Source of the DNA: an uncultured Saprospiraceae bacterium
Lineage (GTDB): Bacteria; Bacteroidota; Bacteroidia; Chitinophagales; Saprospiraceae
Reading direction: 5' to 3'
Assembly: GCA_937929835.1 (NCBI GenBank)
Contig: CALFUU010000002.1
Location: 1-41,099, forward strand
DNA length: 41,099 nucleotides
Shown: positions 24,314 through 41,099 of the stretch, piece after piece
How the letters are laid out: each line of letters begins with the position of its first letter
Numbering within the stretch: position 1 is the first letter of the stretch
Position numbers and translations under genes: made by a program
Notes under the pieces: generated by a model
Databases searched by the model: none
What the model saw: the letters and a program-made list of their open reading frames with translations, nothing else
Told to the model about the DNA's origin: nothing

Positions 24314-25354
24314 CTAACTTGTAATAAGATTTGCGGCTTGCAGATGATCTAGAGATTTCTGGATAAAATTGTCATTAGAAAACAACCTACGTTTCCTATC
24401 ACTCCATTTTTCCAAAGAGGCCTTAATTGAAATGGCGTCACTGGTATTTGACTGTTGAGAAACAAAATCAACAGTAGATAGAAGTTCTAGTCCAAATGAG
24501 GAATAATATCCTTCAAGGAAGTTTGTTGTGAGTGTTGCTATCTTCAGTAATTCTGGATCCTTGCTGACATAATCGATAACATCTTTTTGTGCTTCCATTA
24601 TCAAACTCAAGTACTCAAAAGGTTTCTTGTCCTTACCTTCATAACCCTTAATATAACTTCCGTTAAGCTTGTATAATAGATGTCTTACCTTTCCAGAGTA
24701 AGGACCATAATAATTAGGCGCATAATCAAGCTTGAAGATTTTCGAAGCCCCAAACCTTTGCAGGAAATAGCAAATCTTTTCACAAGCAAATTCACTCACA
24801 AACTCGCCGTTTCTTACTAAGTTATATAATACGAAGAGTAATAAGGCTCTAGCGTCTGTAAGATTGACTCTTTCTTGATTTAGAATTTCTTTTACATTGG
24901 CATTGGGCTCATAAATAATTATTTCGCAATCATGAAGGCTCAATAACGCTGCTTCCAAAATCTCTCTTACCTTATACCATTCTAAACCTCCATTGCCAGC
25001 ACCAAGAGGAGGTATGGCTATGGACTTGATATCTTTTTCAATAATCAACTGCTTAAGTCTATCTACGCCTTTTTTGATGAAAGCATACTCGGAAGGGTTT
25101 CTCCAATGCCTTTTTGTTGGAAAATTGATGATAATTTTTGGGCCTGTAATCAGACTATTGTCCTTGGTGACAATCATCTCACCTATGTCAAAATCACCCG
25201 CTTTGCATCTATCGTAATACACCTTATAATTACTGGGAAACAATTTTTTGAACTGCAAGGCTATACCTTTACCCATCACTCCGACTGTGTTGACAGTATT
25301 CACTAGGGCTTCTGCATCACTTTCAAATAAATTTCCTTTCCTGTAAGTAATCAT
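24314..25354 (-). CDS. darG: DarG: macro-domain antitoxin of the DarTG system
   Basis: Antitoxin of 346 residues that removes ADP-ribose from DNA thymidines modified by DarT and also binds DarT directly. Residues 1-150 are a macro domain: GNLFESDAEALVNTVNTVG, GVMGKGIALQFKKLFP, catalytic-type Lys81 in NFPTKRHWRNPSEY, and the phosphate loop PPLGAGNGGLEW. Residues 175-346 form the DarG C-terminal region (CYFLQRFGASKIFKLDYAPN, YYGPYSGKVRHLLYKL), the part implicated in toxin binding. It starts 3 bp after the darT stop, the usual toxin-then-antitoxin order. Confidence 0.93.
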   Translation of the reverse strand: MITYRKGNLFESDAEALVNTVNTVGVMGKGIALQFKKLFPSNYKVYYDRCKAGDFDIGEMIVTKDNSLITGPKIIINFPTKRHWRNPSEYAFIKKGVDRLKQLIIEKDIKSIAIPPLGAGNGGLEWYKVREILEAALLSLHDCEIIIYEPNANVKEILNQERVNLTDARALLLFVLYNLVRNGEFVSEFACEKICYFLQRFGASKIFKLDYAPNYYGPYSGKVRHLLYKLNGSYIKGYEGKDKKPFEYLSLIMEAQKDVIDYVSKDPELLKIATLTTNFLEGYYSSFGLELLSTVDFVSQQSNTSDAISIKASLEKWSDRKRRLFSNDNFIQKSLDHLQAANLITS

Positions 25355-25357
25355 TGA

Positions 25358-25972
25358 TTAAAAATATCTTTGTGGGGACACGAGCACCTTGGACTTATTA
25401 ATTCCTAGAGCTAATAACGCCTTTTTCGTGTACTCATCATACACGATGAAGCCTAAAATATGCTTGAATGGTAAATCACCTAGTAATAGCAATTCCGCTT
25501 CTTTTCTTCTCTTCACGTCAAGATCATTTTCATCATTCCAAAATGTAGCATCTATTGCATTGAAATCCAGATGGTTAACCATTTCTTCGGGATCTTGGTC
25601 TTTATAAAAAGTTGTCAGGCTATCTGTAGCATGGCCATCTGTGTAAATATAAGGTGTCCCTGAACTGAGAACATCTTGAACGCTGCTTACACAGTAGACA
25701 AGCTTACTGGGTCTCTGTATAGGCACACCATTAAAATCTTTCAGGATAACATATACCATCGGACTTCTAGAGCAGAAATAGAAAGGAATATACTCTCCCA
25801 ATACAGTCCCATAGGGTGTTGGCTTTGTAGCTCTAACACTTATTAATGAAGTATCACCAATCGAAACAAACTTGGAATTTCTGTTAGCAGAGTCTTTATG
25901 TGTAATACCATATTGGATAATATGTGCAAGATTATCAATATGCGTGACCCGATATATTTCTATTCTTTTCAC
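25358..25972 (-). CDS. darT: DarT: DNA thymidine ADP-ribosyltransferase toxin
   Basis: NAD-dependent toxin (DUF4433 family) that ADP-ribosylates thymidine in single-stranded DNA; DarTG systems act as toxin-antitoxin and anti-phage modules. Visible motifs: YRVTHIDNLAHIIQYGITH (NAD-binding N-terminus), SIGDTSLISVRATKPTPYG, FYFCSRSPMVYVI, and the catalytic Glu in KRRKEAELLL (E160). The length of 204 residues is normal. The start is a GTG at 25972 that directly abuts the TAA of the upstream ORF (zero spacing), so darT is probably translated by coupling with the HsdR/HsdS chimera. Confidence 0.93.
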   Translation of the reverse strand: MKRIEIYRVTHIDNLAHIIQYGITHKDSANRNSKFVSIGDTSLISVRATKPTPYGTVLGEYIPFYFCSRSPMVYVILKDFNGVPIQRPSKLVYCVSSVQDVLSSGTPYIYTDGHATDSLTTFYKDQDPEEMVNHLDFNAIDATFWNDENDLDVKRRKEAELLLLGDLPFKHILGFIVYDEYTKKALLALGINKSKVLVSPQRYF

Positions 25973-26311
25973 TTACTCTTTCCTTTTCTTCTCCACTGCC
26001 ATTCCTATCGCCTCTCTTACCTGCCTGATCTTCTCGAGCAGCTCCTTCGCATCCCCATCCCTAGGCAACTGCGGCACCAGCTCACCATTCAAAGCCTTAG
26101 CGAGGAGCGCTCGTGAAAGATGGTCTATCTTTTCCTCCAGCACTGTATAGCGCAGCTCTATCGTATCCGCCTTATCGAAGAGGAGTTGTCTTAGCTTAAG
26201 AAGGACAGCATTGGGGCAACTATAGAGGTAGTATTTTGCTTGTAAGCAGAGGGAATGCAAGAGTGAGAATTCTGCTTTGAGGAAAGTGAAGTTGCTTAGG
26301 TTATCGGGCAT
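25973..26311 (-). pseudogene. Chimeric type I restriction remnant: HsdR-like start joined to HsdS-like end
   Basis: An ORF of 112 residues. Residues 1-42 (NLSNFTFLKAEFSLLHSLCL, SCPNAVLLKLRQ) resemble the opening of type I restriction R subunits (DUF4145-like, typically ending in a D-P-N-x2-L-x-K-L-R-Q motif). Residues 43-112 (LLFDKADTIELRYTVLEEKI then LSRALLAKALNGELVPQLP) match the C-terminal helix and tail of HsdS specificity subunits (LAKAFRGELVPQ). The simplest reading is a deletion that fused hsdR to the end of hsdS, leaving an open frame that now leads into darT. It may still be translated; no restriction activity is expected. Confidence 0.7.
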
Positions 26312-26619
26312 TGGATTATTCTACTAGGATTACTAATGTACCCTTTAAGCTACGAGATAACAAATTGATGCCATCAGAATAGATGCTGACTTTATTTACA
26401 AACTAGATCCTAAAACCTCTGATTTCCTAGGATACCAAGTTGTTTAATGGCCCGTTTATTCATTTTTGATAGTTGCTGATCTACCTAACTTGTTGGTTAT
26501 CAATATCCTACAGCTAAGAAAATGGACTCAAGCAGAATACTTCCTACAGAGCTTACTTTTTAGTTGTTTATCCCATATAACCTCCTTACTTTTGGGGTCG
26601 CTGAAAAAGCCGAAAGATA

Positions 26620-26643
26620 AAGGTCTGGTAGTTCAGCTGGTTA
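26620..26643 (+). repeat. 24-bp direct copy of the tRNA-Asp 5' end
   Basis: Identical to 26784-26807, i.e. two bases of 5' flank plus the first 22 nt of tRNA-Asp through the D loop. After it the sequence diverges at once (TGATGAGG...) and does not fold as a tRNA. It is a tRNA pseudogene fragment or the scar of an earlier duplication or integration. Confidence 0.85.
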
Positions 26644-26785: not shown

Positions 26786-26859
26786 GGTCTGGTAGTTCAG
26801 CTGGTTAGAATACCTGCCTGTCACGCAGGGGGTCGCGGGTTCGAGTCCCGTCCAGACCG
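26786..26859 (+). tRNA. tRNA-Asp (GTC)
   Basis: A 74-nt cloverleaf. Acceptor GGTCTGG pairs with CCAGACC, the D arm is GTTC AGCTGGTTAGAAT, the anticodon stem CCTGC/GCAGG has loop CTGTCAC with anticodon GTC at 26820-26822, and the T arm GCGGG/CCCGT has TTCGAGT. The discriminator is G and CCA is not encoded. Its 3' end (from 26845) is the integration target of the downstream element; a second copy of this end lies at 36090. It is followed directly by a terminator hairpin. Confidence 0.97.
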
Positions 26860-26865
26860 CAAGCA
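26845..26865 (+). repeat. attL core: tRNA-Asp 3' end, 21-bp direct repeat
   Basis: Begins GTCCCGTCCAGACCGC in the T arm and continues six bases past the tRNA; identical to 36090-36110. The left copy completes a functional tRNA, the right copy is an isolated 3' fragment: the expected pattern for a tyrosine-recombinase element in a tRNA gene. Similarity continues into the following terminator (loop GTCATTGAT at both ends). Confidence 0.9.
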
Positions 26866-26978: not shown

Positions 26979-27365
26979 ATGCCCATACTACTAACAAATT
27001 TCAATGTTGTTTATCCTAAGTCAATCATAAACTCTTTATACAATGAAGGACTAGAGCAATTTAAGAAGGACTTGGGCTATGGTAAAGGTGAAAAAGACTC
27101 AGAGGATGATTTTCTATTGAGTTTCGCCTGTATGAACTATACAGATAGCTCTCCTGAAGGATTTGAGCTAGACAAAGACTATGCTATTATTGGTAAGTGG
27201 CAACAGAACAACAGTTGCGAATGGCTTCTAGATAATGGATTGTACTTCTGGCACAGAGACTACCAAGACACAAAATCAACAAATCAGAAATACCTATCTC
27301 AATCAATTACAGTGGGTATGCTTGAAGAATATTTGAAGTCTGGTTCTCTTCCAATCAAATTTTAA
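26979..27365 (+). CDS. Hypothetical protein, element cargo
   Basis: 128 residues, soluble, no signal peptide or membrane segment, acidic, with aromatic-rich patches (WQQNNSCEWLLDNGLYFWHRDY). I do not recognise the family. Its first 16 residues (MPILLTNFNVVYPKSI) resemble those of the 29638 gene (MPMQLSNFNCVYLKSE) at 10 of 16 positions, although the rest differs. Being a small stand-alone cargo gene it could be an immunity-type protein, but nothing shows this. Confidence 0.6.
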   Translation: MPILLTNFNVVYPKSIINSLYNEGLEQFKKDLGYGKGEKDSEDDFLLSFACMNYTDSSPEGFELDKDYAIIGKWQQNNSCEWLLDNGLYFWHRDYQDTKSTNQKYLSQSITVGMLEEYLKSGSLPIKF

Positions 27366-27598
27366 TTAGCCTAACCAATTTTAAAATTATTGTGCATCTA
27401 ATTGCTGAACTCTAGATTTACTATTTTTTATAGTCAGCTTACAATAAATCATAGTAAGAAATTGAGGGGGGGGATATTTGAAAATCAGTATATCAGGGAA
27501 GGGATACTAGGTATAATGCCTATATTAGATACAGATAGAATATTTCAAATATTAATGATAGGAAGACTAGATTTTATTACAAATTTAAATAGAGACCT

Positions 27599-28075
27599 AT
27601 GTTTACTAGAACAAGATTAGTGCTTCAAGATAAAAATATAATTAAGGCATTAAAAAATAGTAGCTATCTGAAAAGCTTTAAGCCTGAAACATTAAATGAA
27701 ATTGATGTTGATGATCTGAACCATAAAGAGCAATGGCTAGTAGAAATCCGTAAGTTTATTAAAACCGCTGAGAAGAAAGCAAAATATCGTGAACCTTTTA
27801 GAATGCTAGGTTACAATATTGATGATATGTATAGGAGCTACATTTATATGACCTTGTCTACTATGCCAAACCCAATATTGAAAACAGGTAAACAAGATTT
27901 AACAGTTTCAGCTATAGGTTCTTGTATGTATCAAGAGGACAAGCAATTTTCTATGTTTCGAGAATTAGTAAGAAGTAATTCACTTAAAGAAGGTTCGATT
28001 CAGTTTGCTGATATGCTTAAGGCTCAACATGATTTTGCAAATGGGGCAATTTTCTTTGAAAATGTACCATATTGA
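27599..28075 (+). CDS. Hypothetical protein, element cargo
   Basis: 158 residues, mostly helical and charged (HKEQWLVEIRKFIKTAEKKAKY), no signal peptide or transmembrane segment, ending HDFANGAIFFENVPY. No family recognised. The frame just upstream (27516-27620, beginning MPILDTDRIFQILMIGRLDF) overlaps its start by 22 bp and might be a small coupled peptide; that ORF also contains a run of eight G at 27466-27473 if read from its earlier start. Confidence 0.55.
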   Translation: MFTRTRLVLQDKNIIKALKNSSYLKSFKPETLNEIDVDDLNHKEQWLVEIRKFIKTAEKKAKYREPFRMLGYNIDDMYRSYIYMTLSTMPNPILKTGKQDLTVSAIGSCMYQEDKQFSMFRELVRSNSLKEGSIQFADMLKAQHDFANGAIFFENVPY

Positions 28076-28202
28076 TATTATCCCAAAGTGATATTTTCTA
28101 TCATTTAGAAAGAACTTATGAAGAGAGGGGTGAAGGGGTATTATCCCTATGTTCAATTCATACACCTCGTTTTTAATACCTTTTTAGGCAGACCATTAAT
28201 AT

Positions 28203-29078
28203 ATGAACAACACGTTGACTTGGATTTTTCTATTTTTTTTACCCCTCAACATATTTAGCCAAGTTAAATACGATACAATAATTGATAACTGTCGCTTCTA
28301 TTGTGCAAATGATAGCATAAATATTAGTTACAAAGGGACTTCATTTTATAAGTCAAACGAAAAGATTTCACATTGGTATTATAGTGAAACTGATGATATA
28401 GAATTTTTTCCAAGACTTATTGATATAGATTGTGACGGTCTTAATGAGCTTGTTTTTACAAGATACACCAGAGGCACACATTGTTGCTTTGGGTTGCTGA
28501 TATGGACTTTTAAGAGCGATAAGCCTAGTTTGCTATTTGAACATAAGGACAAGGACATGGGTGGTTATAAAATGACTGATATAGATGGAGATTGTGCTCT
28601 AGAGTTAGTGTACTCTGATGATAGTTGGGCCTATTGGAAGACTGACTATTCTAGGTCTCCTAGCGTAGGTGTAGGGATGAAGTTAATTTCAGGTCATTAT
28701 AAATATCATGATTTTTCAAGTGAAGTTGCTGATAGTATGAGTTACTATGACAGGAAAAAAGAAAAGTGGGAAACTATATCAGACAAAGAATATTTAAAGA
28801 CTTATAACGAAAGAGTAACCAGAGTAAAAGACTTAAAAGGCTGGACTGACCACAACCTAGCAGACCTTTCTGAATATTGGGAAACTATATTACAACTGCT
28901 TGAGTTCGGATATACGGAAGAAGCATATTGTTTTTCAGTTGATGCGTGGAATAGTTCTTGGCTAAACTATGATTCCTTTATGTACAAATTCTGTAACAAC
29001 CTGTACTCTAGTAAGCACATTGGGTATTTGCAAATGAAGAATCCAAGTTTAAAAAGTTTCTTTAATAACTCTTATTGA
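28203..29078 (+). CDS. Exported hypothetical protein with FG-GAP-like repeats
   Basis: 291 residues. The signal peptide is MNNTLTWIFLFFLPLNIFSQ. Two related motifs, LIDIDCDGLNELVFTRYTRG and MTDIDGDCALELVYSDDSWA, resemble FG-GAP/VCBS-type calcium-loop repeats (D-x-D-x-D/C-x2-x-E-L-V). The C-terminal 90 residues are helical and aromatic. Likely periplasmic or secreted. It is followed after 4 bp by a membrane protein (29083), so they are probably co-transcribed. Function unknown. Confidence 0.6.
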   Translation: MNNTLTWIFLFFLPLNIFSQVKYDTIIDNCRFYCANDSINISYKGTSFYKSNEKISHWYYSETDDIEFFPRLIDIDCDGLNELVFTRYTRGTHCCFGLLIWTFKSDKPSLLFEHKDKDMGGYKMTDIDGDCALELVYSDDSWAYWKTDYSRSPSVGVGMKLISGHYKYHDFSSEVADSMSYYDRKKEKWETISDKEYLKTYNERVTRVKDLKGWTDHNLADLSEYWETILQLLEFGYTEEAYCFSVDAWNSSWLNYDSFMYKFCNNLYSSKHIGYLQMKNPSLKSFFNNSY

Positions 29079-29082
29079 ATAA

Positions 29083-29592
29083 ATGACTGAATTAGGACTT
29101 TATCTTTTCATCATACTGGCATTACTGTATTGCTCTATTGTTCACTATAAGATAGAATTACGGTCAATGATAAATGGTACTTTATCAAAATCTGAGCGAA
29201 TTGATAATCTACGATTCAATATTAGTCAATTAATATTTCCATCTGTTCTTTGCCTGATAATTGGGATCTTAATGACTTCTGGAACAGTGTATGTTGTCAA
29301 GAAATTTTATACTGTACCTAAATTAGGTCACATATTTATAGCAGATAATTTCAAGGCTGTATATGCCTGTAAGTATAAATTAAGCAACAATTCTGAAAAT
29401 ATAAAGTATGGTAAATGTAGTTTTGAATACGACTCCCGTATGCTGGGAGTTGGCTGCGGTATAATGCCAAATATGGTTGAAGGAATCTCAATTTCTGAAA
29501 GTTGTATATCGGAGATAAATAAGTGGGAAAAGTGTCATACCTCAGATGGGAAAAACATTTGGATTTATATTTACGATGACAAAACACACTAG
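29083..29592 (+). CDS. Two-helix membrane protein, hypothetical
   Basis: 169 residues. Transmembrane segments at about residues 5-20 (LYLFIILALLYCSIVHY) and 50-72 (LIFPSVLCLIIGILMTSGTVYVV) flank a short cytoplasmic loop; the C-terminal 95 residues form a Cys-containing extracytoplasmic domain (CKYKL, CSFEY, GVGCGIMP, ESCIS, EKCHT). The even number of Cys residues suggests disulfides. No family recognised. It is 4 bp from the exported protein upstream, which suggests a functional pair. Confidence 0.55.
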   Translation: MTELGLYLFIILALLYCSIVHYKIELRSMINGTLSKSERIDNLRFNISQLIFPSVLCLIIGILMTSGTVYVVKKFYTVPKLGHIFIADNFKAVYACKYKLSNNSENIKYGKCSFEYDSRMLGVGCGIMPNMVEGISISESCISEINKWEKCHTSDGKNIWIYIYDDKTH

Positions 29593-29637
29593 CTGGCTTT
29601 AAATCATATATCAGAATAGAACCAAAAATAAAAGATC

Positions 29638-30078
29638 ATGCCTATGCAATTGTCCAATTTCAACTGTGTCTATCTAAAGTCTGAAATATCTATTTCACTT
29701 TTGATACTACTGTTTACAAACGTAGCTGACTCTATAGGACAAAGCCACAGCTTTAAGGAAAGTACTTATTCCGTTGTATTTGATGATTATTGTTACCGAC
29801 AAGAAGGATTTCTTAAAATATCTGATGTAAATGAGAATTCATTTAAAGTTGAAATTGAAGTAAGTAATGTTGATTTCAAAGGTAGTCTAGAATGCATTGC
29901 CCGCACTGATGGATATAAGAGTTATGCTCAGTTTTCAGAGTATCACGGTGATGAAAAATCAACATTCGGTTTTTGGCTAAGTCCAGACGGCAAATATTTA
30001 TTTGTAGAATACAATGGACCAGGCTTTATATATAGTGGTGCAGGCGTATGTGTGGAGGGTTACTATTTATTAGACTAA
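29638..30078 (+). CDS. Hypothetical exported protein, element cargo
   Basis: 146 residues. The N-terminus MPMQLSNFNCVYLKSE resembles that of the 26979 gene and precedes a hydrophobic stretch (ISISLLILLFTNVADSIGQ) that looks like a signal peptide, giving an unusually long n-region. The mature part is beta-rich (YSVVFDDYCYRQEGFLKISD, FGFWLSPDGKYLFVEYNGPG). No family recognised. It lies 45 bp after the membrane protein and may be part of the same transcript. Confidence 0.5.
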   Translation: MPMQLSNFNCVYLKSEISISLLILLFTNVADSIGQSHSFKESTYSVVFDDYCYRQEGFLKISDVNENSFKVEIEVSNVDFKGSLECIARTDGYKSYAQFSEYHGDEKSTFGFWLSPDGKYLFVEYNGPGFIYSGAGVCVEGYYLLD

Positions 30079-30115: not shown

Positions 30116-31255
30116 TTACTTATAGGTATTGTGAAACTCAATTGACCAATCTAATACTTCTTCTTCGTTTGTTGATTTCGGTAAATTCCCATCGTCTAAT
30201 ATTGACTCCAACTTGTTAATTCCCTTTTCAATGAACTCAGGTGGGTAATAGTGGTCTTCTCCATAATATTGAATTTTAGATTTTGATCTAAGTTCATTAT
30301 AGTTTTGTCGAAGAATTCTAATTACTATCTCAATAGGATAGGCGTCAATATCAGAATATCTTCCTTTTAAATTTTCTTGACGGAATAGTAGCATCAATCT
30401 GCTTTTTTGCGAAGTGCTTCCGATGTATTTAGGCTGAATATCTTTCATTAACTCAAGTCCGATTAATTGGTTTCTATAAATCGACGCAGCATTACTATGT
30501 CCAAGTTCTCTGGCATTATCATTATATTTTTTATTGAATTGAGGTTCACTTTCGATAAGTGCTATTGCCTTGTTAATAGTCTTCTTTGCATTTTCATACT
30601 CTGTCAATTCAATATATATCATTCCTAATACATAATGATGATTAGCATCTTTAGGGAAATTTACAACTGCTCTTTTACCGTATAGTACAGCCTTGCTTGG
30701 CTTGCCTAAATCTTGATAAGCCATAGCAAGATAAATGTCTATCTCAGAGGACAAATCTGGATTGAATTTTACCGCACTCTCAAAGAAATTTAGAGCAGCT
30801 TTTGACTGCCCAATTTCTAACATATGTGCTCCAGTTTCTAAGGCTGAACTACCCTCAGCTTTTACCTGTTCGAAAAAATCATTAGTATCATCAATTTCTT
30901 GATTCTCATTATCATACTTGCTCTCTATTAATTCTTTTTCTGTAAATACAAAGTCTTCACCATTGTAAGTAAACTCAACTTTATCTTTATAAAGAATGCC
31001 ACTTATTTTCTCACCTTTAAATTCTCTTCTATCATTAATAAATGGACCATAACTTACTGTACTGTTTATATTATCTAGTGTTATGGTATTAGATAACGTA
31101 CTGCCAAGTACCTTGCCCATTTTATAAAATGTATATTTTCCATTTTCAGCTTTTTTGTAACAAAAAGCATAGAATGTAATGTTCTTTCCGCTATTATGAG
31201 ATGAAAATGAGTACCATACCCATATAACCAACACTAAAACGAGAATATATATCAT
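30116..31255 (-). CDS. Membrane-anchored TPR protein
   Basis: 379 residues. An N-terminal anchor (IYILVLVLVIWVWYSF) is followed by a beta-rich domain (about 25-110: YAFCYKKAENGKYTFYKMGK, SYGPFINDRREFKGEKISG) and a TPR region (about 135-240: KAALNFFESAVKFNPDLSSE, KAVLYGKRAVVNFPKDANHH, NAKKTINKAIALIE). The remaining part is helical. TPRs point to a protein-binding role; the partner is unknown. The 104-aa gene upstream is 11 bp away, so the two are probably co-transcribed. Confidence 0.65.
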   Translation of the reverse strand: MIYILVLVLVIWVWYSFSSHNSGKNITFYAFCYKKAENGKYTFYKMGKVLGSTLSNTITLDNINSTVSYGPFINDRREFKGEKISGILYKDKVEFTYNGEDFVFTEKELIESKYDNENQEIDDTNDFFEQVKAEGSSALETGAHMLEIGQSKAALNFFESAVKFNPDLSSEIDIYLAMAYQDLGKPSKAVLYGKRAVVNFPKDANHHYVLGMIYIELTEYENAKKTINKAIALIESEPQFNKKYNDNARELGHSNAASIYRNQLIGLELMKDIQPKYIGSTSQKSRLMLLFRQENLKGRYSDIDAYPIEIVIRILRQNYNELRSKSKIQYYGEDHYYPPEFIEKGINKLESILDDGNLPKSTNEEEVLDWSIEFHNTYK

Positions 31256-31266
31256 AACTATCTAAT

Positions 31267-31581
31267 TTACTTTAGCATATCATTTATAATAATATCAGCC
31301 TGAACTCTTATAGCGAGGACTTGATTGATGTTAAATGAGCCTCTCATCACTCTGTAAGAAAGCCCTGCACTTCTATCAAATTTTTCCTTAACTAATTGAA
31401 TGTCCTCTATTGTAGAATTTAAATCCAAAACCCTCCATTTCTTAAAAAGACCTTTTCTCCTGTACATTATAGAACTTAACTTAGGTATTGGTGAGATAGG
31501 ATTATAATTATCTATAGAGACCTGAAGACCACTGTCTAACCACAATAGAGTTTTTCTTAGTTCATTTCCGATGTCTTTCAT
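31267..31581 (-). CDS. Small hypothetical protein, element
   Basis: 104 residues, soluble, basic, no recognised family. The N-terminal helix (MKDIGNELRKTLLWLD) is followed by a beta-like segment and a C-terminal helix (NINQVLAIRVQADIIINDML). It lies 36 bp after the polymerase-like gene and 11 bp before the TPR gene, on the same strand, linking the replication-type module to the cargo. Confidence 0.5.
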   Translation of the reverse strand: MKDIGNELRKTLLWLDSGLQVSIDNYNPISPIPKLSSIMYRRKGLFKKWRVLDLNSTIEDIQLVKEKFDRSAGLSYRVMRGSFNINQVLAIRVQADIIINDMLK

Positions 31582-31617: not shown

Positions 31618-33081
31618 CTAATTAGCAGCAGCTAAAGCTAGCGTTTTTCTGCGATGAATGAGGCTACTTCTGTTTCTCTTTGTGTCTGTAAGGACACTCT
31701 TTCCAAACAACCTTATTGATTCCTCTGATATTATCTCTTTAATCTCAGTCTCAAAATCTGGGATAGTACCTATGCCATCGTGTATAGTGTAAAGAGGACA
31801 TTCGGGATATTCTTCGCTTATTCTTTTACACACTACATCAAGTATGAAGTATGATTCTAGCTTTTGGCTGAAATATGCAAAAGGGCAATCTACATTATAA
31901 TGTAGTTTTCTTTTTGTTCTTCCTGTCTTAGTAAAGTAATATCTGTGATTCAGTCTGTCGAATACCTTCATTACGTTAGGGTAGGTTTCATCTAGGTAAT
32001 TCCTTTCACGAGAAGCTCTAGAAGAGGGACTATTTAGAACCTTCATTAGTTGTTTTTTAGCATCATCCCTAGTATAATTAGTTTGTAGACTTCGATTCCA
32101 TCCTTGACTCAATTCTCGGTATAAGTCTCTATGAGGTGATATAATCATATCCTGATAGTCATTTATGTCTGGATAACTTCCATCAAAGAGGTCATATTCT
32201 CCTAACATAATATAAGAACCAGAAAATAAATAACTAAACCTATCTATCCCTTCTCCATTATCCTCTATATCATCTAAAATAAACTTATTAGATTCTCTTA
32301 AAATTCTACTTATTGTCTCGTTCTGCACTAATGTATCATTGTCAAATAGCAATAGTGAAAAGAAAGGAATTGAACTTTTAAGGTCAATTTCAATTGTCTC
32401 CATTCCTCCGATTCTTATTTCTTTTCTAGCCTTTTTATTTATCTCAGTTATATGTGTAAATAGCCTATTTGTTCTTCCTTGTCTCATCTTGAAATAATAG
32501 GGGTCACTGATTCTGTTAACTAAGTTTCTTTGCTGTTGGTATTTGAGCGCTCTATTTCTGTAGAAATGCATATGCCTCACGTTGTCCAGAGGTATTTCTA
32601 TCTCTTTAAACCACTTGTACAGGTAATCATATTGGTTTATAATTCTACGAGGTCTATTATGCTTATTATAAGAGTTAAGGAAGCCAGTGTCATAGATGTG
32701 ATACTCCGAATATTGTAAGACATCACCTAGACCACTATGATATTTATAACCCTTGCATTTCTCTCTTCCTTCAAAGTTTGAATAGCTGTTGTCTACCTCA
32801 ATTATTCTATTGTATTTAAAGTAGTCCATATACTGTTTGTAGTTCTTTATATTATTCTGAAGAATAGTGCTACTGAGTCTTGTATACCCATTTTCGTCAA
32901 TATGCCTATCTTCATTTATTTGAGCCATAGAAATTTGACTTAACAAGAATGCCGCGCGATCTCTTATTTTCTCTGGACTATTTCTGTAGGTATTAGTTTT
33001 GAATTCTACACCTTGAAGTAATTTGTCCAAGTTTATATTACTTGGAATGTATGCTGTATATTTTCTACTAAATGGATTCAT
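31618..33081 (-). CDS. Polymerase-like protein with T7-type (family A / ssRNAP) palm motifs
   Basis: 487 residues. Three motifs occur in the order and chemistry of the T7 RNA polymerase/family A palm. Motif A: IEIDLKSSIPFFSLLLF, D233 (T7 RNAP: DGSCSGIQHFSAML). Motif B: RDDAKKQLMKVL, R338 and K342 (T7: RSVTKRSVMTLAYG). Motif C: YTIHDGIGTIPDF, H434-D435 (T7: LIHDSFGTIPAD). The position matching T7 Tyr639 is Asn350. Residues 40-115 look like a winged-helix DNA-binding region. The start overlaps the 101-aa gene by 14 bp. Most likely a replication or primase-type polymerase of the element; it could be an inactivated relative. Confidence 0.6.
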   Translation of the reverse strand: MNPFSRKYTAYIPSNINLDKLLQGVEFKTNTYRNSPEKIRDRAAFLLSQISMAQINEDRHIDENGYTRLSSTILQNNIKNYKQYMDYFKYNRIIEVDNSYSNFEGREKCKGYKYHSGLGDVLQYSEYHIYDTGFLNSYNKHNRPRRIINQYDYLYKWFKEIEIPLDNVRHMHFYRNRALKYQQQRNLVNRISDPYYFKMRQGRTNRLFTHITEINKKARKEIRIGGMETIEIDLKSSIPFFSLLLFDNDTLVQNETISRILRESNKFILDDIEDNGEGIDRFSYLFSGSYIMLGEYDLFDGSYPDINDYQDMIISPHRDLYRELSQGWNRSLQTNYTRDDAKKQLMKVLNSPSSRASRERNYLDETYPNVMKVFDRLNHRYYFTKTGRTKRKLHYNVDCPFAYFSQKLESYFILDVVCKRISEEYPECPLYTIHDGIGTIPDFETEIKEIISEESIRLFGKSVLTDTKRNRSSLIHRRKTLALAAAN

Positions 33082-33373
33082 TGTTTCTCTTTTTGTTTGT
33101 TCTGTAAAGGATTCTTTTATGCCTTCTTAAGCTGCCACAGAAGAAGTTTTCTAGCTTTTCGGGATGAGTATCAAGAAATACAAAAAAGCTTCTTAAGTGC
33201 ATATTCTGGGCTCCTGTGATCCCTTCTTTTAGAAATGCTATGATTTGATTATGTAGATTGTTTAGGAAGTAATGTATCTGATGTTTGTTCATATCATCTA
33301 GATGTTCGTTTACCCTATCTTGGACTAGTTTTAAGGTGCTTCTATCGTTGAACCACTGTTTGTATATTTTCAT
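33068..33373 (-). CDS. Small hypothetical protein coupled to the polymerase-like gene
   Basis: 101 residues, helical and strongly basic toward the C-terminus (FCGSLRRHKRILYRTNKKRN). No family recognised. Its 3' end overlaps the start of the polymerase-like gene by 14 bp (33068-33081), so the two are translationally coupled and probably act together, for example as a DNA-binding accessory; this is inference from position and charge. Confidence 0.55.
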   Translation of the reverse strand: MKIYKQWFNDRSTLKLVQDRVNEHLDDMNKHQIHYFLNNLHNQIIAFLKEGITGAQNMHLRSFFVFLDTHPEKLENFFCGSLRRHKRILYRTNKKRNNESI

Positions 33374-33427: not shown

Positions 33428-33703
33428 TCAGGGGTCTTTGCCTCTTACAAATGCATCTAGTTCAGACTTTTTAAATCTTGTAGCTTTGTTGAGCTTGTGC
33501 TTTATTAAGCCCTGTTTCACATAATTATCAATACTAGAGATGCTTACATTTAGATACTCAGAGCTTTCTTTTCTGGATAGATATCTATCTTGACTAGACT
33601 CTTTGAAATCCTTTAGTAATTCAGCCTTAAGTAATGGTGTGATGCGTTCTACCTCTTGTCTTACAAGAGCTTCAATAATATTGTCTATGCTATTTTCTTT
33701 CAC
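33428..33703 (-). CDS. Excisionase-like HTH protein
   Basis: 91 residues. The C-terminal half is a MerR/excisionase-type helix-turn-helix (HTH_17): YLSRKESSEYLNVSISSIDN, YVKQGLIKHKL, TRFKKSELDAFV. The N-terminal half is a helix (NIIEALVRQEVERITPLLKA) likely for dimerisation. Such proteins direct excision or act as regulators in Bacteroidota integrative elements; its place near the integrase supports a recombination directionality factor. Confidence 0.8.
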   Translation of the reverse strand: MKENSIDNIIEALVRQEVERITPLLKAELLKDFKESSQDRYLSRKESSEYLNVSISSIDNYVKQGLIKHKLNKATRFKKSELDAFVRGKDP

Positions 33704-33776: not shown

Positions 33777-34667
33777 TTACACGAATATGGATTCAGGATT
33801 GGTTTTAAACTTTTCAAGTATATCCAGTGGCTTACCTTGACAAATTCTTGGATACTTTATTTTCAAAATCTCAATTGCATCCTCAATTTCGTATTGGTTT
33901 ACCTTTCCAGACTTGACTTGGTTAAATGAAAAATAGCTACCATTCTTTTTAAGACTAGTTGAAAAATAAGCTGACATAGATCTTAAGAGTGGCTTTTTGT
34001 GTCTTATGTCATCAACTAAGATCTCAATTGCGAACTCCTCTAATAATGAAATATCTACTCCCATTTTCCCTCCAATTAACTTTCTTTGTACTTTGTTTTC
34101 GTCCATTATGGCATTCATATAGGAAGGTAGTCGCTCTTTAATGTTTTGAATTGTAGCACCTTCAGCTCTTAGAATAGCGAACGCGAGGAGAAAGAGGTCT
34201 TTAAATTTCAGAATGGTTCTCTTCTTTCTGTCAGCCATTTGAGGAATTTCAAAATAAGACTGTTCTAGATTGTGCCTTTTGCAAGATTCTATGTAGTTGG
34301 CTTTACGAATGTCAATGAATGGCATTAGGTAATTGTCGACATTTTCTCTCCTTTCAAATGATGACAAAAAAGCATTGTCTAGTACATCAAGCAAAGCAAG
34401 TACTACCAGACCATATAAATCCCAATCTTCCTGTTCTCCATATTGTCCCTTAATAGGTAGTAAAATGCTTTCAATAAGCTCCTTGTCATATTGACCTGCA
34501 CCTTCAATTGGCTTTTCAGGAATGTAGAAGTCTATTTTTTCTCTCGGGACGATTCCTCTATTTAGTTTAAATACACTTGTTCTTAGTTTACTTAATTGAA
34601 TTTCAGATGTTGGATTTTCACCTAACAAAAGAGAAATCTTTTTGCTTTTCGCCTTTGAATAAGTCAT
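33777..34667 (-). CDS. Hypothetical protein coupled to the integrase
   Basis: 296 residues, soluble, mainly helical, no recognised family. Landmarks: the LKFKDLFLLAFAILRAEGAT helix and a C-terminal segment KSGKVNQYEIEDAIEILKIK. Its ATG overlaps the integrase stop by 4 bp (34664-34667), which indicates translational coupling and a role in integration, excision or element control. The GAGATIQNIKERLPSY-like segment could be an HTH, but this is weak. Confidence 0.6.
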   Translation of the reverse strand: MTYSKAKSKKISLLLGENPTSEIQLSKLRTSVFKLNRGIVPREKIDFYIPEKPIEGAGQYDKELIESILLPIKGQYGEQEDWDLYGLVVLALLDVLDNAFLSSFERRENVDNYLMPFIDIRKANYIESCKRHNLEQSYFEIPQMADRKKRTILKFKDLFLLAFAILRAEGATIQNIKERLPSYMNAIMDENKVQRKLIGGKMGVDISLLEEFAIEILVDDIRHKKPLLRSMSAYFSTSLKKNGSYFSFNQVKSGKVNQYEIEDAIEILKIKYPRICQGKPLDILEKFKTNPESIFV

Positions 34668-35902
34668 AATATTGAGAGGTTGTGTCTTTTACTAACTTCT
34701 GTCATATCTATTTTGAGATAGCTTGAAAACGTCTTCAGGTTGCTATGTCCTGTTAATTTCATAATTGCAGCAGGTGGAATACCTCTGTTGTGCAGCAAGG
34801 TTGCAAAAGTCCTTCTGCAATCGTGGCTTGAAATTATCTCATATTTCTTTTTACGTTCTTCGCTCACTACACCTTTTAGAGGGTTTTCTTTCCTTATGAT
34901 TATAATGTCATTAAGTTCAGCGGCTTCGCATACATCCTTTATATATTCATTGAATTTCTGTTCTGAATATGTTTTAGGGTATCCACCGTATTTATCTAGG
35001 ATATTTTGAATAGCTTCTGTTATTGGTAGTTTAACCACTTTTCGTGTTTTCTTTTGGGCAATATTAAAGTACTTCTTTCCACCTTCCTCTACAATGTCAT
35101 CAATTGAGAGGTCTTTAAAATCACTATATCTCTGACCCGTTGCAAAGCCTATCAAGAGTCTATCTCTAACCTTATCTAATTTAGGTGAAAGACTAGCACT
35201 TTTTATCTTTTCTAGTTCTTCTGATGACAAAGCAATTCCAGAATCATTAATCTTAGATACCTTAACTCTCCAATTTCCTTTTTCAAATGAAGCTGGCACT
35301 TCAAATCCTTCTAAAATAGCTGATTTAACCACCGTATTAAGCCTCCTCTGAATCTTATTTATCTGATTGGTTCCATAGTTCCGATTCTGAACCATAAATG
35401 CTGTAAGGGCATTTAATCGCTTCTCAGACAGATCATTAAATTGTAAGGTTCTACCTTTAGGAAACTCTTTGATAATTGTCTCTAATTGCTTGTAACCATG
35501 AATTGTTCCTTTGGTTAGTATTCCTTCACTTTCTCTAGTTTCAATGAATGAGTTTATGAATTTGAGGACACCTTTAGGTAAAGAGGCTGCTGCTGCACTG
35601 CTAGACACAGCTTTTTCTATTCCATCTTTAAGCTGTAAGATTGTTGGTGTCTCTCTTATTCTAGTATAACTTAAAAGAACATCGCTTACAGCCCTTTCGT
35701 AATTATTAAGCCATTGATTGTAACGTGGATACTCAAACTTACCTTGCGTGGTTCTCAGTCTCTGCGCCGATTTGTTCCAATCGCTCGTCGGTATTGTTAT
35801 CCCTGTTGACATTAGAAGTTTCCCTGACTCATATCTATACACAAGCATAATCAAGGATTTGTCCTTATTTGGTTTGTTTAAGTTGAATTTTACTTTGTTC
35901 AT
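34664..35902 (-). CDS. int: Tyrosine recombinase (integrase) of the tRNA-Asp element
   Basis: 412-residue site-specific recombinase. An N-terminal arm-binding region (residues 1-90) is followed by a SAM-like core-binding domain (about 108-205) and the catalytic domain with the full active-site set: R258 (FATGQRYSD), K285 (KKTRKVVKLP), H360 and R363 (SSHDCRRTFATLL), H386 (LTGHSNLKTF) and Y395 (FSSYLKID). The gene starts 188 bp from the right att core, with the paired TGCCGTCG boxes in between. It should catalyse integration at the tRNA-Asp 3' end. Nothing suggests inactivation. Confidence 0.95.
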   Translation of the reverse strand: MNKVKFNLNKPNKDKSLIMLVYRYESGKLLMSTGITIPTSDWNKSAQRLRTTQGKFEYPRYNQWLNNYERAVSDVLLSYTRIRETPTILQLKDGIEKAVSSSAAAASLPKGVLKFINSFIETRESEGILTKGTIHGYKQLETIIKEFPKGRTLQFNDLSEKRLNALTAFMVQNRNYGTNQINKIQRRLNTVVKSAILEGFEVPASFEKGNWRVKVSKINDSGIALSSEELEKIKSASLSPKLDKVRDRLLIGFATGQRYSDFKDLSIDDIVEEGGKKYFNIAQKKTRKVVKLPITEAIQNILDKYGGYPKTYSEQKFNEYIKDVCEAAELNDIIIIRKENPLKGVVSEERKKKYEIISSHDCRRTFATLLHNRGIPPAAIMKLTGHSNLKTFSSYLKIDMTEVSKRHNLSIL

Positions 35903-35985: not shown

Positions 35986-36089
35986 TTTTTCTTCTTCTTG
36001 GGTGGTCTGTGGTGGTCTTGATAGAGCAACTATCTCTAAATATATAGCCTTAATAGGCCACTGTAGAATATGGCAGAGTTTAGGTGTGG

Positions 36090-36110
36090 GTCCCGTCCAG
36101 ACCGCAAGCA
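36090..36110 (+). repeat. attR core: isolated tRNA-Asp 3' end
   Basis: 21 bp identical to 26845-26865, but the sequence to the left is element DNA (TTTAGGTGTG), so no tRNA can form here. It marks the right boundary of the element. Confidence 0.9.
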
Positions 36111-38179: not shown

Positions 38180-38827
38180 TTAGTTGGGAGTAGACCTGTA
38201 ATGTTCAGGAACCTTGACTGTCTTGGTACAATTGTTTCTTTTAATCTTGTCTGGTAACTTATCTCCTAGTCGCTTGAAAGTGCTGTGGTGATGCAGTCCG
38301 TAATATCTAGATTTTTGAAAGTATGGCGGCAATACGTGTCGTAGGAAATGGTTGATGGCGATGAGTGGATGCACTCTCTTTTCTGCGAATTGTGCAGCCT
38401 CTCCTATAGGTTTGTTTTTATAGTCTTTATAAATAATATTTACATAGCTGTCGTTTTTCTGCGTTTTGGCAATGTAATTCAGTCGTGACTTAGAGATGGC
38501 TATTCTGTTGATATATCCTGCCAGATATCGTTCTAGTATTTGTGTATCTGCAGTAGGGTAGGCGTTTCTTACATTCCATCTTTTGGTTTTGACGAGATCT
38601 AGTACTTCCTCCGTGTCTGGCAGTAGCTTGAGATTGTTTTTGTCAATTTCTGCTCTGACCATTTCTAGAAATATATCTCTATAGGTATTGCTTATCTTCT
38701 TGTATGGTGCAAGTTTCTTTTTATGCTTGGGCCAGAACCAGTTACCTGAATCATCGACACCACCAAACGTAATCAGAGCATGGACATGGATATGGTACTT
38801 CATATCAGAGCCAAAGGTATGCAGCAA
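38180..38827 (-). pseudogene. IS91-like HUH transposase, truncated at both ends
   Basis: 216 codons of an IS91/Y2-type rolling-circle transposase. HUH motif HIHVHALITFGG at the start, the tyrosine region LERYLAGYINRIAISKSRL, then NIIYKDYKNKPIGE, FLRHVLPPYFQKSRYYGLHH and KRLGDKLPDKIKRNN. The 5' end is broken: coding sequence continues upstream (ELADDPLLHTFGSD) to an in-frame TAG, and the apparent start is only an internal TTG. The zinc-finger N-terminus is missing, and the C-terminus diverges after NNCTK; a matching C-terminal zinc ribbon lies on the opposite strand at 38831-39013. Non-functional. Confidence 0.8.
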
Positions 38828-39196: not shown

Positions 39197-39227
39197 AATG
39201 TATGTGCACATTGAGTGCGCATACATT
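39197..39227. repeat. Long hairpin before the KAP gene
   Basis: AATGTATGTGCAC-ATTGA-GTGCGCATACATT: 13-bp arms with one G-T pair. A second, shorter hairpin (ACCCT-TTAG-AGGGT) lies about 10 bp to the left. Could be an IS terminus, a terminator or an operator. The only standard start codon of the KAP frame (GTG 39215) lies inside the right arm. The 39014-39196 interval otherwise shows no gene. Confidence 0.55.
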
Positions 39228-41099
39228 CCTTTTGTGTTATCGGTAACCAAAAAATAAAAACTATCTACTCAGACAAAGCAATATCACAAAAGTCACAGGA
39301 CAGATTAAATAGATTCAGGTTTGCATCTGAAATAGCAGATGGCGTAGTTAACTCATTGTCCGATCAAAATGACAGTCTTGTTTTAGGAATAACTGGATCA
39401 TGGGGAAATGGAAAGTCATCATTCGTAAATTTCGTAACGGATGAAATAGAGCGAATAAATAAGGTCAATAAATCTAACTATATAGTCTTCAATTTTAATC
39501 CTTGGTACTTTTCGGGACAGTCAGATTTGCAAACAACCTTTCTGAATCAAATGATTCTCAAACTTGGAGACAAGACGTCAAAATTTAAAAACCTTTCTTC
39601 CAAACTCTCATCTCTGCTAAGCTATTTAAACGCAATAAAATATCTAAATAGTGGAGCAGGAGAAGCGGTGACAGAGTTTAAGAAAATATTAGATAATATT
39701 GGCGAAGAAAAAGATCTTACTTCACTAAAGGAAAGTGTAGATGAGATTTTAAAGGAATCCAATATAAAACTATATATTACAATTGACGATATAGATAGAT
39801 TGACTCCTTCTGAAGTAACAGCCATATTTCAATTAGTAAAATTAAATGCAAATTTTTCAAATACTGTATTCATACTAGCTTACGACTATAATGTTGTAAT
39901 CAATTCATTGCAAAGTAAATTTGGAGGCAATAGTAAAAAATACTTAGAAAAAATTGTGCAAGTAGATTATACTCTGCCTAGGATTTCAAAGTCCATTATC
40001 AAAACAATAGCTTATGAACGTTTCACCTTAATAGTAAATAAGTTCGCTCTTAGTGATAGTGTTTTTCTACAGAGCATTGAGGCGGGAAATGCATCATTTC
40101 TTAGGATGATAAAAAACATCAGAGACATTAATCGGATAGTTAATTCAATTCTAATAAGAATTGGATCTATTAAAGATGAAGTAAATTTTGGTGATTTTGT
40201 AACACTTGAGACTATTAGAATTTATGATCCTGAGGTCTACGCCTACATTTCAGAGGCTAAAGAATATCTGACAATAAATAATAACTCTGGGTCATACAAG
40301 TATGAAAGAAGTAATAGTACCGAAAGCATTAACAAGCATATTGAAAGTCTTTGTTATGCAAGCGATTCGAAATACTTGATAAAAAGTTTGTTTACAACAA
40401 ACAAGGAGGCTGTGTATTATAGTAGCTACGCCAATCAGGACTCGTTTCGCCTCAATAAAATTAGCAATCCATACTATTTTGATAGGTATTTCAATCTAAA
40501 TTTATCTGAATCAGAAATTAGCGAAAAGGATTTTGAAGCATTTTTATCAGGTGACAAGAACAAAATAGCTGAAACATTAGATAAGCTAAAAGTAAACGAG
40601 AAGGTAATTACTTTCTTTGTTTGGCTTGAGCTAAAGATAAATTATCAATTTCCAAAAGACAAGTTAGCAACAATGCTTAAAGAGAGCTTGAGGCATTTAG
40701 AAAAATTACACTATAATCCATCTCCATTTACTTTTGACGAATACAGGGCAATAATTACTACCGTTTCCAAAATTTCTACTTCATATCTAGATTCAGATCA
40801 AGTAAGAAAATTTTTACTCGAATATGTATCTGAGGATAAAGCTATTTTGTCTTTTGCACCGACCTACATTTGTTATACTATTCTTTATTGCAATGAACAA
40901 AAGAATCAAGACAAATTAAAGTACTCTCACTATTGGTATAGGTCTTTTGAAGGCAGTGATGAAAATGTGAGAACTTTTATAAGTTCAATAGAAACTACTT
41001 ACAAAACATTACTTTGGAATTTAGTTACTGATTTTGTAGACGGAGGTATTGATCTTAATGAATCTGAGCAGGAATATATGTGGCTAGAGCTTTACAAAT
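39215..41099 (+). CDS. KAP-family P-loop NTPase, 5' part (runs off the window)
   Basis: 628 codons are present without a stop. Conserved KAP opening SDKAISQKSQDRLNRFRFAS, Walker A GITGSWGNGKSSFVNFV (39394-39417), then NPWYFSG, Walker B LYITIDDIDRLTPSEV (near 39781), FILAYDYNVVINSL and YLEKIVQVDYTLPRIS. There is no transmembrane insert between Walker A and B, so it is a soluble KAP protein. KAP NTPases are frequent in defence islands (PifA is the classical example). Start unclear: GTG 39215 is the only standard codon, but family-like sequence begins about 15 codons later, at the ATA 39254 (KTIYSDKAI). Confidence 0.85.
   Translation, partial: MRIHSFCVIGNQKIKTIYSDKAISQKSQDRLNRFRFASEIADGVVNSLSDQNDSLVLGITGSWGNGKSSFVNFVTDEIERINKVNKSNYIVFNFNPWYFSGQSDLQTTFLNQMILKLGDKTSKFKNLSSKLSSLLSYLNAIKYLNSGAGEAVTEFKKILDNIGEEKDLTSLKESVDEILKESNIKLYITIDDIDRLTPSEVTAIFQLVKLNANFSNTVFILAYDYNVVINSLQSKFGGNSKKYLEKIVQVDYTLPRISKSIIKTIAYERFTLIVNKFALSDSVFLQSIEAGNASFLRMIKNIRDINRIVNSILIRIGSIKDEVNFGDFVTLETIRIYDPEVYAYISEAKEYLTINNNSGSYKYERSNSTESINKHIESLCYASDSKYLIKSLFTTNKEAVYYSSYANQDSFRLNKISNPYYFDRYFNLNLSESEISEKDFEAFLSGDKNKIAETLDKLKVNEKVITFFVWLELKINYQFPKDKLATMLKESLRHLEKLHYNPSPFTFDEYRAIITTVSKISTSYLDSDQVRKFLLEYVSEDKAILSFAPTYICYTILYCNEQKNQDKLKYSHYWYRSFEGSDENVRTFISSIETTYKTLLWNLVTDFVDGGIDLNESEQEYMWLELYK

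Follow-up and report, generated by a model that had tools for sequence, protein, structure and literature searches.

A predicted family-A-like polymerase as candidate replication enzyme of a small tRNA-integrated element in an uncultured Saprospiraceae bacterium

The window analysed here, a stretch of 41,099 nucleotides of contig CALFUU010000002.1 from an uncultured Saprospiraceae bacterium (assembly GCA_937929835.1), carries a 9.25-kb element bounded by a repeat of the 3′ end of a tRNA-Asp gene, and inside this element lies the gene for a 487-aa protein with the motifs of a polymerase. The features of the element, with their coordinates in the window, are as follows.

26786..26860 (+): tRNA-Asp (gtc), identified by ARAGORN, integration target, its complete copy being the left one
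26838..26865 (+): attachment repeat, left copy (tRNA 3′ end), direct repeat D6
26979..30078 (+): cargo ORFs of 128, 158, 291, 169 and 146 aa, all unmatched in Pfam at E ≤ 0.1
30116..31255 (−): 379-aa TPR protein, cargo (Pfam TPR_2, E 4.2e-9)
31267..31581 (−): 104-aa protein downstream of the polymerase, no Pfam family
31618..33081 (−): predicted family-A-like polymerase, 487 aa (D233 in motif A, R338/K342 in motif B, Q406/E409, H434-D435 in motif C)
33068..33373 (−): 101-aa basic protein, its gene sharing 14 nt with that of the polymerase; no homologue detected
33428..33703 (−): HTH_17 (AlpA/excisionase-like) DNA-binding protein, 91 aa (Pfam PF12728, E 2.1e-9)
33777..34667 (−): 296-aa protein, its start lying 4 nt within the integrase gene; unmatched in Pfam, PHROG and NCBIfam
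34664..35902 (−): tyrosine integrase, 412 aa (Pfam PF00589, E 1.9e-17; PF13102, E 2.8e-10)
36083..36110 (+): attachment repeat, right copy (3′ part of the tRNA only), direct repeat

The two copies of the attachment repeat (28 nt at 89%, of which 21 form an identical core) lie 9245 bp apart, and the right copy matches the 20-nt end of the tRNA with three mismatches; no such match was obtained in 100 shuffles of the window. This recurrence of the tRNA-Asp 3′ end corroborated the tRNA integration proposed in a preliminary description of this DNA. One strand carries, in this order, the genes for the integrase, the 296-aa protein, the HTH_17 protein, the 101-aa protein, the polymerase, the 104-aa protein and the TPR protein. 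The integrase gene and the 296-aa gene overlap by 4 nt (ATGA), and the 487-aa and 101-aa ORFs were both found where they had previously been placed. The 101-aa protein is basic, as described before (K+R 17, D+E 10); it has no match in Pfam, PHROG or NCBIfam, and among the phmmer results listed none of 39 other small ORFs located between an integrase and a polymerase matched it. Among the 12 proteins of the element that were scanned with Pfam, a set leaving out the ORFs of 72 and 77 aa, we recognised no helicase or primase, no relaxase of the kind expected in an integrative mobilizable element, and no PolB. The search for an empty site, made with the right flank only in 13 other genomes of the genus, gave matches all of 36 nt or less and thus revealed no such site. 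The polymerase gene is present as a single copy in its own genome.

All the residues named in the preliminary description (D233, R338, K342, H434 and D435) are present in the 487-aa protein, and so is YTIHDGIGTIPDF. The distance between motifs B and C, 93 residues, is indeed shorter than the 181 residues of T7 RNA polymerase (RNAP); T7 gp5 has 132 residues in this interval, and the Pol I of the host has 124. The replacement by Asn of the substrate-selecting Tyr of T7 RNAP was also seen, as N350 falls at K+8, the position of that Tyr. The proposed likeness in motif A stood in part: D-x3-S is common to both proteins, but the spacing that follows differs, the window protein reading D-x3-S-x3-F-S and T7 RNAP D-x3-S-x4-F-S. 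Searched as a single sequence, the window protein gave no match in Pfam or NCBIfam at E ≤ 10, and no significant match in PHROG (best E 0.21) or among PDB sequences (best E 1.8). A winged-helix N-terminus, suggested earlier, is compatible with the predicted secondary structure.

Relatives of the polymerase were collected by successive searches. The single protein matched in 8 of 395 genomes of the phylum, and a profile built from nine members detected the family in 29 of 395 Bacteroidia genomes, both counts including the genome of origin. Within the window's genus the presence of the family is patchy, since 2 of 14 genomes carry a member (its own and one other); seven of these 14 have a completeness of 90% or more. 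When the single protein served as query, pattern scans of species-genome and viral contigs yielded no confirmed relative; the productive scans used a closer six-member alignment (A3), a 33-member alignment (A2) being too diverse, and in 84,980 species genomes they led to 159 relatives confirmed among 185 candidates. The best 80 of these 159 were analysed as loci. According to record names, 78 of these best 80 are Bacteroidota; of the other two, one is titled as a Rhizobium MAG (L144) and one is unassigned (L151). Because the L144 contig also encodes a Fib_succ_major protein, we suspect that it is misbinned. Relatives were also found on 22 IMG/VR contigs, on one Hymenobacter plasmid and in six phage records of 595-735 kb, two of which have equal length and position; through the large-phage relatives the family extends beyond elements. 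Two of the IMG/VR loci (L077 and L078) have the same gene lengths as the chromosomal loci L170 and L159, and chromosomal elements are therefore probably present among the IMG/VR contigs. PHROG 4756, of unknown function, is matched by 23 of 77 members (best E 2.7e-8) and not by the window protein. Part of the family is therefore already in that library, without a function. The polymerase family is large and essentially undescribed.

After removal of six identical proteins, the 136 loci yielded 130 distinct members, 104 cellular (one of them on the plasmid) and 26 viral. For the main alignment of 127 sequences, members shorter than 380 aa (L062, L085 and L153) were left out; split-ORF members (L062, L081 and L153) were kept unjoined, and the row L013 or L113 entered alignments A2, A5 and A6 without its fused C-terminal domain. 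The 127 aligned members are 380-686 aa long (median 492), and from this size and the lack of Pfam matches the family apparently has no exonuclease domain. In the 77-member alignment the invariant columns are D233, Y321, K342, Q406, E409, H434 and D435. With gaps set aside, the 127-member alignment has D233 in 127/127, K342 in 126/126, E409 in 126/126 and D435 in 125/125, followed by H434 (123/125), R206 (126/127), S237 (124/127) and Q406 (122/125). The two Asp and the Lys, whose invariance had been suggested as a check on the original proposal, are thus kept wherever a letter is present. The F-S pair of motif A is not family-wide, with F at column 241 in 30/127 members and S at column 242 in 50/127.

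At two positions the window copy departs from its relatives. Position 238 is Gln in 124/127 members and Ile in the window protein; position 350 (K+8) is Phe or Tyr in 123/126 (Phe 98, Tyr 25) and Asn in the window protein, L016 and L173. In the profile alignment these two positions pair with sugar-selection residues of family A, so that the window copy deviates from the family at two presumed sugar-selection sites (I238 and N350). The residues of its catalytic centre are intact. The window protein is at most 27% identical to any other row in the family tree, which was used solely for placing it, on a long and unsure branch.

The structure of the window protein was predicted with AlphaFold2 from a 77-row alignment (pLDDT 83.8, pTM 0.86). 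The model has a right-hand palm, in agreement with what had been deduced from the motifs, and the 487-aa protein is therefore predicted to be a right-hand polymerase. In a Foldseek search against PDB, 47 of the 50 matches listed, including ranks 1-34, were family-A DNA polymerases (Pol I, theta, nu); the best E was 2.8e-4, the sole value below 0.001 among the matches listed. The other three of the 50 were mitochondrial RNA polymerases at ranks 35, 47 and 48 (E 7-9e-3). For a second, more typical member (L122; pLDDT 88.1, pTM 0.88), all 50 matches listed were family-A DNA polymerases, the best with E 2.7e-5. In both predicted models the palm fold is thus closest to family-A DNA polymerases. TM-scores of the two models to PDB chains were 0.23-0.41 by query length; being low, they indicate that the PDB match covers the core and not the whole chain. 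The nearest folds in BFVD were A0A516L5C2 and A0A8D9FR19 (TM-scores by target length 0.77 and 0.69).

The family was also compared with two profiles, one built from 16 family-A polymerases (nine Bacteroidota Pol I, six other phage enzymes and T7 gp5) and one from 16 T7-like RNAPs. Against the family-A profile it scored 51.8 (E 8e-6, probability 84%) over 181 columns, while the best of 60 column shuffles reached 19.8 and the reversed profile 18.0. Against the RNAP profile the score was 33.2 (probability 8%) over 26 columns around motif C, with 24.2 for the best of 60 column shuffles and 15.3 for the reversed profile. The likeness of motif C to T7 RNAP (IHDSxxT), which the preliminary description had stressed, thus exceeds the shuffles as well, but it is short. 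The family-A alignment spans motif A, the RxxxK helix, the Q helix and motif C. It pairs D233, K342 and H434-D435 with D475, K522 and H653-D654 of T7 gp5, and I238, M346, N350 and Q406 with E480, Y526, Y530 and Q615; of the gp5 numbers D475, K522 and D654 were computed, and the remaining ones were counted from those or taken as known. N350 and I238 of the window protein stand where T7 RNAP carries Tyr (K+8) and Gly (gate position). At the gate the family has Gln in nearly all members as against the Gly of T7 RNAP, and at K+4, where T7 RNAP has Met, Phe or Tyr stands in 93/126. The near-universal Gln at the putative sugar gate suggests that the family uses dNTPs. At E ≤ 1 none of the nine members scanned matched PF00476, and none of nine matched Pfam RNA_pol (PF00940). 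The signatures of Pol I are missing, the family having DIxNSQPxL and HDS, not DYSQIELR and HDE.

The loci, collected by polymerase similarity alone, were then inspected for their neighbouring genes. A tyrosine integrase lies within 3 kb of the polymerase in 67 of the 104 distinct cellular loci and in 5 of the 26 viral ones; chance would give about 0.01 integrase per locus, as estimated from 88 PF00589 matches in about 54 Mb of 12 of these genomes (rounded sizes). In the cellular loci the integrase is upstream on the same strand in 46, downstream on the opposite strand in 20 and otherwise placed in one. No integrase was found within 3 kb in 37/104 cellular and 21/26 viral loci; some loci are cut by contig ends. 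In 40/130 distinct loci a related HTH gene precedes the polymerase gene on its strand at a distance of up to 1.5 kb, as judged with a profile built from 15 of these loci, and in 20/130 it overlaps the start of the polymerase gene; the window HTH protein is related to HTH proteins upstream of other members (for example L128, E 4e-11). An ORF of 234-461 aa between the integrase and the HTH gene occurs in 10 other distinct loci; by phmmer these ORFs are dissimilar in sequence, one identical pair excepted, and homology among the ORFs of about 300 aa at this place was dropped as none was detected.

A tRNA gene is present in 67/104 cellular loci. A repeat of at least 18 nt of a tRNA 3′-end region spans the member in 16/104 cellular loci and lies elsewhere in two (L128 and L137). 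In L144 and L172 both repeat copies are whole tRNA genes, and these may therefore be paralogous tRNAs. We considered 17 repeat-bounded stretches of 5.3-18.0 kb, including L121 with its weaker 16-nt repeat and leaving out L110 (16 nt); the integrase is found in 16 of the 17, the exception being L166. Integrase and polymerase alone are nearly constant in these stretches and the rest varies. In the two shortest (L144, 5.35 kb, and L169, 5.26 kb) they are the only genes above 250 aa. A pair formed by AAA_24 and DUF3871 genes occurs in 6 of the 17, so that integrase and polymerase are not the sole shared genes. Over all 136 loci, AAA_24 and DUF3871 clusters, each annotated from one representative, lie within 10 genes in 24 and 26, respectively; AAA_24 we take to be Sak4-like. 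A UvrD helicase gene lies upstream in one small group of loci. Ten cargo proteins picked by hand from five loci, a choice that gives no frequency, all have matches among the PADLOC models (restriction-modification of types I and III, AAA ATPase of the PARIS/Septu/Gabija type, SIR2), and the surroundings are thus defence-rich in those five loci. For ten neighbour proteins encoded on four viral contigs, Pfam was almost uninformative. The Hymenobacter plasmid has its own annotated replication initiator and ParA; with this initiator present, the polymerase is not the only replication gene of that plasmid, and a role as its sole replicase was rejected.

Several known systems resemble parts of this arrangement. 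In pipolins, as described in PMC7385651, piPolB and att sites are the only features common to all, and most carry recombinases and sit at a tRNA gene. The window element is like them in tRNA-gene integration, terminal att repeats, a tyrosine recombinase, variable cargo and a polymerase as hallmark, but unlike the primer-independent family-B polymerase of pipolins its own polymerase is family-A-like. According to PMC10803314, PICMI carry int and iolg, two genes that overlap by 4 nt, as well as an AlpA-type regulator (its models include PF12728) and a primase; when the primase is deleted, circular and concatemeric copies become fewer. The window element shares with them the int gene, a gene overlapping it by 4 nt (that of the 296-aa protein), the AlpA-type/HTH_17 regulator and a replication gene, a putative one in the window element; PICMI, however, have a DUF3987/DUF5906 primase and a Fis regulator, and the window element has the polymerase in the place of the primase. 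Neither a DUF3987/DUF5906 primase nor a Fis-type regulator (PF02954) was matched by Pfam in the 12 proteins scanned, the 72- and 77-aa ORFs being outside that set. PICMI are phage satellites, induced and packaged by a helper phage.

With family-A DNA polymerases such as Pol I and T7 gp5 the family has in common the palm fold, the Asp of motifs A and C, the RxxxK helix, the Q helix and Phe/Tyr at K+8 and often at K+4; it differs from them, besides the missing PF00476 match and the altered signatures, in the Gln instead of Glu at the sugar gate, in the apparent absence of an exonuclease and in the B-C distance (93 vs 124-132). T7-like RNAPs share only IHDSxxT in motif C and D-x3-S in motif A, and differ in B-C distance, in the Gly gate and in a profile match confined to the motif C stretch. 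The two viral models are likened to the family by fold alone, A0A8D9FR19 being named 'Putative DNA polymerase I' of an uncultured marine phage; like PHROG 4756, they are phage records, whose entries describe no element context or function. In PMC open-access titles and the beginnings of abstracts, a body of text that most subscription papers and bioRxiv fall outside, we found no family-A-like polymerase described as hallmark of tRNA-integrated elements.

These data can be read in more than one way. An element-encoded RNA polymerase of T7 type, or a primase-like transcriptase, making primers or element transcripts, would account for the motif C stretch and the D-x3-S spacing, and the window copy lacks the Gln gate residue of nearly all members; two RNA-polymerase PHROGs also match, weakly, one of 77 members each (best E 0.008 and 0.009). 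We regard such an enzyme as unlikely, given that nothing outside motif C matches the T7-like RNAP profile, that the fold matches favour family-A DNA polymerases, that the Gln gate and the Phe/Tyr at K+4 look more DNA-polymerase-like than the Gly and Met of T7 RNAP, and that Pfam RNA_pol is matched by none of the nine members. The 'T7-type' label of the preliminary description was set aside for the same reason: family-A DNA polymerases lead the fold ranking, and the profile comparison with T7 RNAP covers the motif C stretch alone.

A polymerase of family-A type might instead serve in repair or recombination, filling gaps during excision, integration or annealing and not copying the whole element. 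Pol I itself is a repair enzyme, and the AAA_24 and DUF3871 clusters near many loci, together with the UvrD gene in a small group, would suit such a function. The two smallest repeat-bounded stretches, where the polymerase is the only large gene beside the integrase, and the 20 loci in which its gene overlaps the HTH gene speak against it; to our knowledge, other tRNA-integrating elements need only host repair. This role therefore seems to us improbable. The defence-rich cargo of the five loci would allow the polymerase to be itself cargo, a nucleotide polymerase of defence or abortive infection comparable to defence reverse transcriptases. That is very unlikely in our judgement: among 77 members searched at E ≤ 0.01, PADLOC found homing-endonuclease models only (two models, one member each), and identity with a defence family was rejected on this result; in addition, the gene keeps its place next to the HTH gene at the integrase end, amid otherwise variable genes, and relatives occur in the large phage records.

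The explanation that we favour, and hold to be probable, is that the 487-aa protein represents a new branch of the family-A superfamily (Pol I/T7 gp5) and acts as the replicase of small tRNA-integrated Bacteroidota elements, which would be equivalents of pipolins with a family-A-like enzyme and a gene order like that of PICMI. The earlier proposal of an element-specific polymerase as candidate replication enzyme is upheld in this respect by the palm and the element context, but its T7-type nature is not. The palm fold, the two catalytic Asp, the O-helix-like RxxxK, the Q/E helix, the repeats of the tRNA end and the integrase and HTH neighbours are computed; replication, priming and substrate of the polymerase are what we infer. 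In the replicase model the AlpA-like HTH protein would switch on the operon that makes integrase and polymerase, and the integrase would excise the element at the tRNA repeats. The polymerase could then copy the excised circle with dNTPs, either through host primase and helicase or by self-priming, and the many copies would allow the element to spread. Variable cargo would travel along, including the restriction-modification and other defence genes of some relatives.

A bolder form of this model can be put forward only tentatively, and we consider it rather doubtful. Here the elements would constitute a widespread and so far undescribed class of self-replicating tRNA-integrated Bacteroidota elements, the family-A equivalent of pipolins. 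A single family-A-like polymerase would initiate as well as elongate their DNA (or mixed RNA-DNA), integrase and polymerase being sufficient at 5 kb, and the window copy, given its I238 and N350, would be a relaxed-sugar variant that makes its own primers.

A search profile now exists for this gene, which is missed by the annotation libraries that we used, and on the replicase reading the compact polymerase family would offer a candidate set for primer-independent synthesis. In polintons, casposons and pipolins the hallmark replicative polymerase is of family B, as stated in PMC7385651. If the replicase reading is true, a family-A-like branch would hold the same role, and this life style would have arisen with another polymerase family. 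It would also help to explain how small tRNA islands without a recognised replication gene, some of them with defence cargo, multiply.

Outside the 9.25-kb tRNA-integrated element, the following features were recorded in the window, the coding sequences being recognised by eye:

24314-25972, minus strand: neighbouring ORFs of 346 and 204 aa, resembling a macro-domain antitoxin and a DarT-like ADP-ribosyltransferase
25973-26311, minus strand: 112-aa ORF, similar to a type I restriction specificity subunit in its C-terminal end
26613-26643: 31-nt stretch repeating the 5′ portion of the tRNA-Asp region at 94%; it precedes the intact tRNA by 164 nt
38180-38827, minus strand: transposase-like fragment, outside the element
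39215-41098, plus strand: KAP-type P-loop NTPase, outside the element and truncated by the contig end

By eye, the 346-aa and 204-aa ORFs look like a DarTG-type pair, and the 112-aa ORF is probably a fragment. The 31-nt copy is perhaps a scar left by an earlier integration.

Among the relatives of the 487-aa polymerase, the locus L013 (8523-10583) carries a polymerase with a GIY-YIG/NUMOD homing-endonuclease domain fused in frame at its C-terminus. HNH PHROGs matched one of the 77 aligned family members; by eye, the L138 polymerase has a C-terminal extension that is HNH-like in appearance. At three Bacteroidales loci (L121:7795-9825, L124 and L127) the gene directly upstream of the polymerase gene belongs to cluster c77, annotated as a UvrD-type helicase on the basis of the L121 copy; this helicase could possibly be a replication partner of the polymerase, or a defence gene.

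The contig of the L144 family member, binned as Rhizobium sp. Q54, also has a Fib_succ_major protein nearby and is probably a misbinned Bacteroidota contig, the alternative being an inter-phylum transfer. Furthermore, the profile search of Bacteroidia genomes returned family matches at two or more separate places per genome in G561, G072, G387, G583, G481 and others, as expected if elements were acquired independently.
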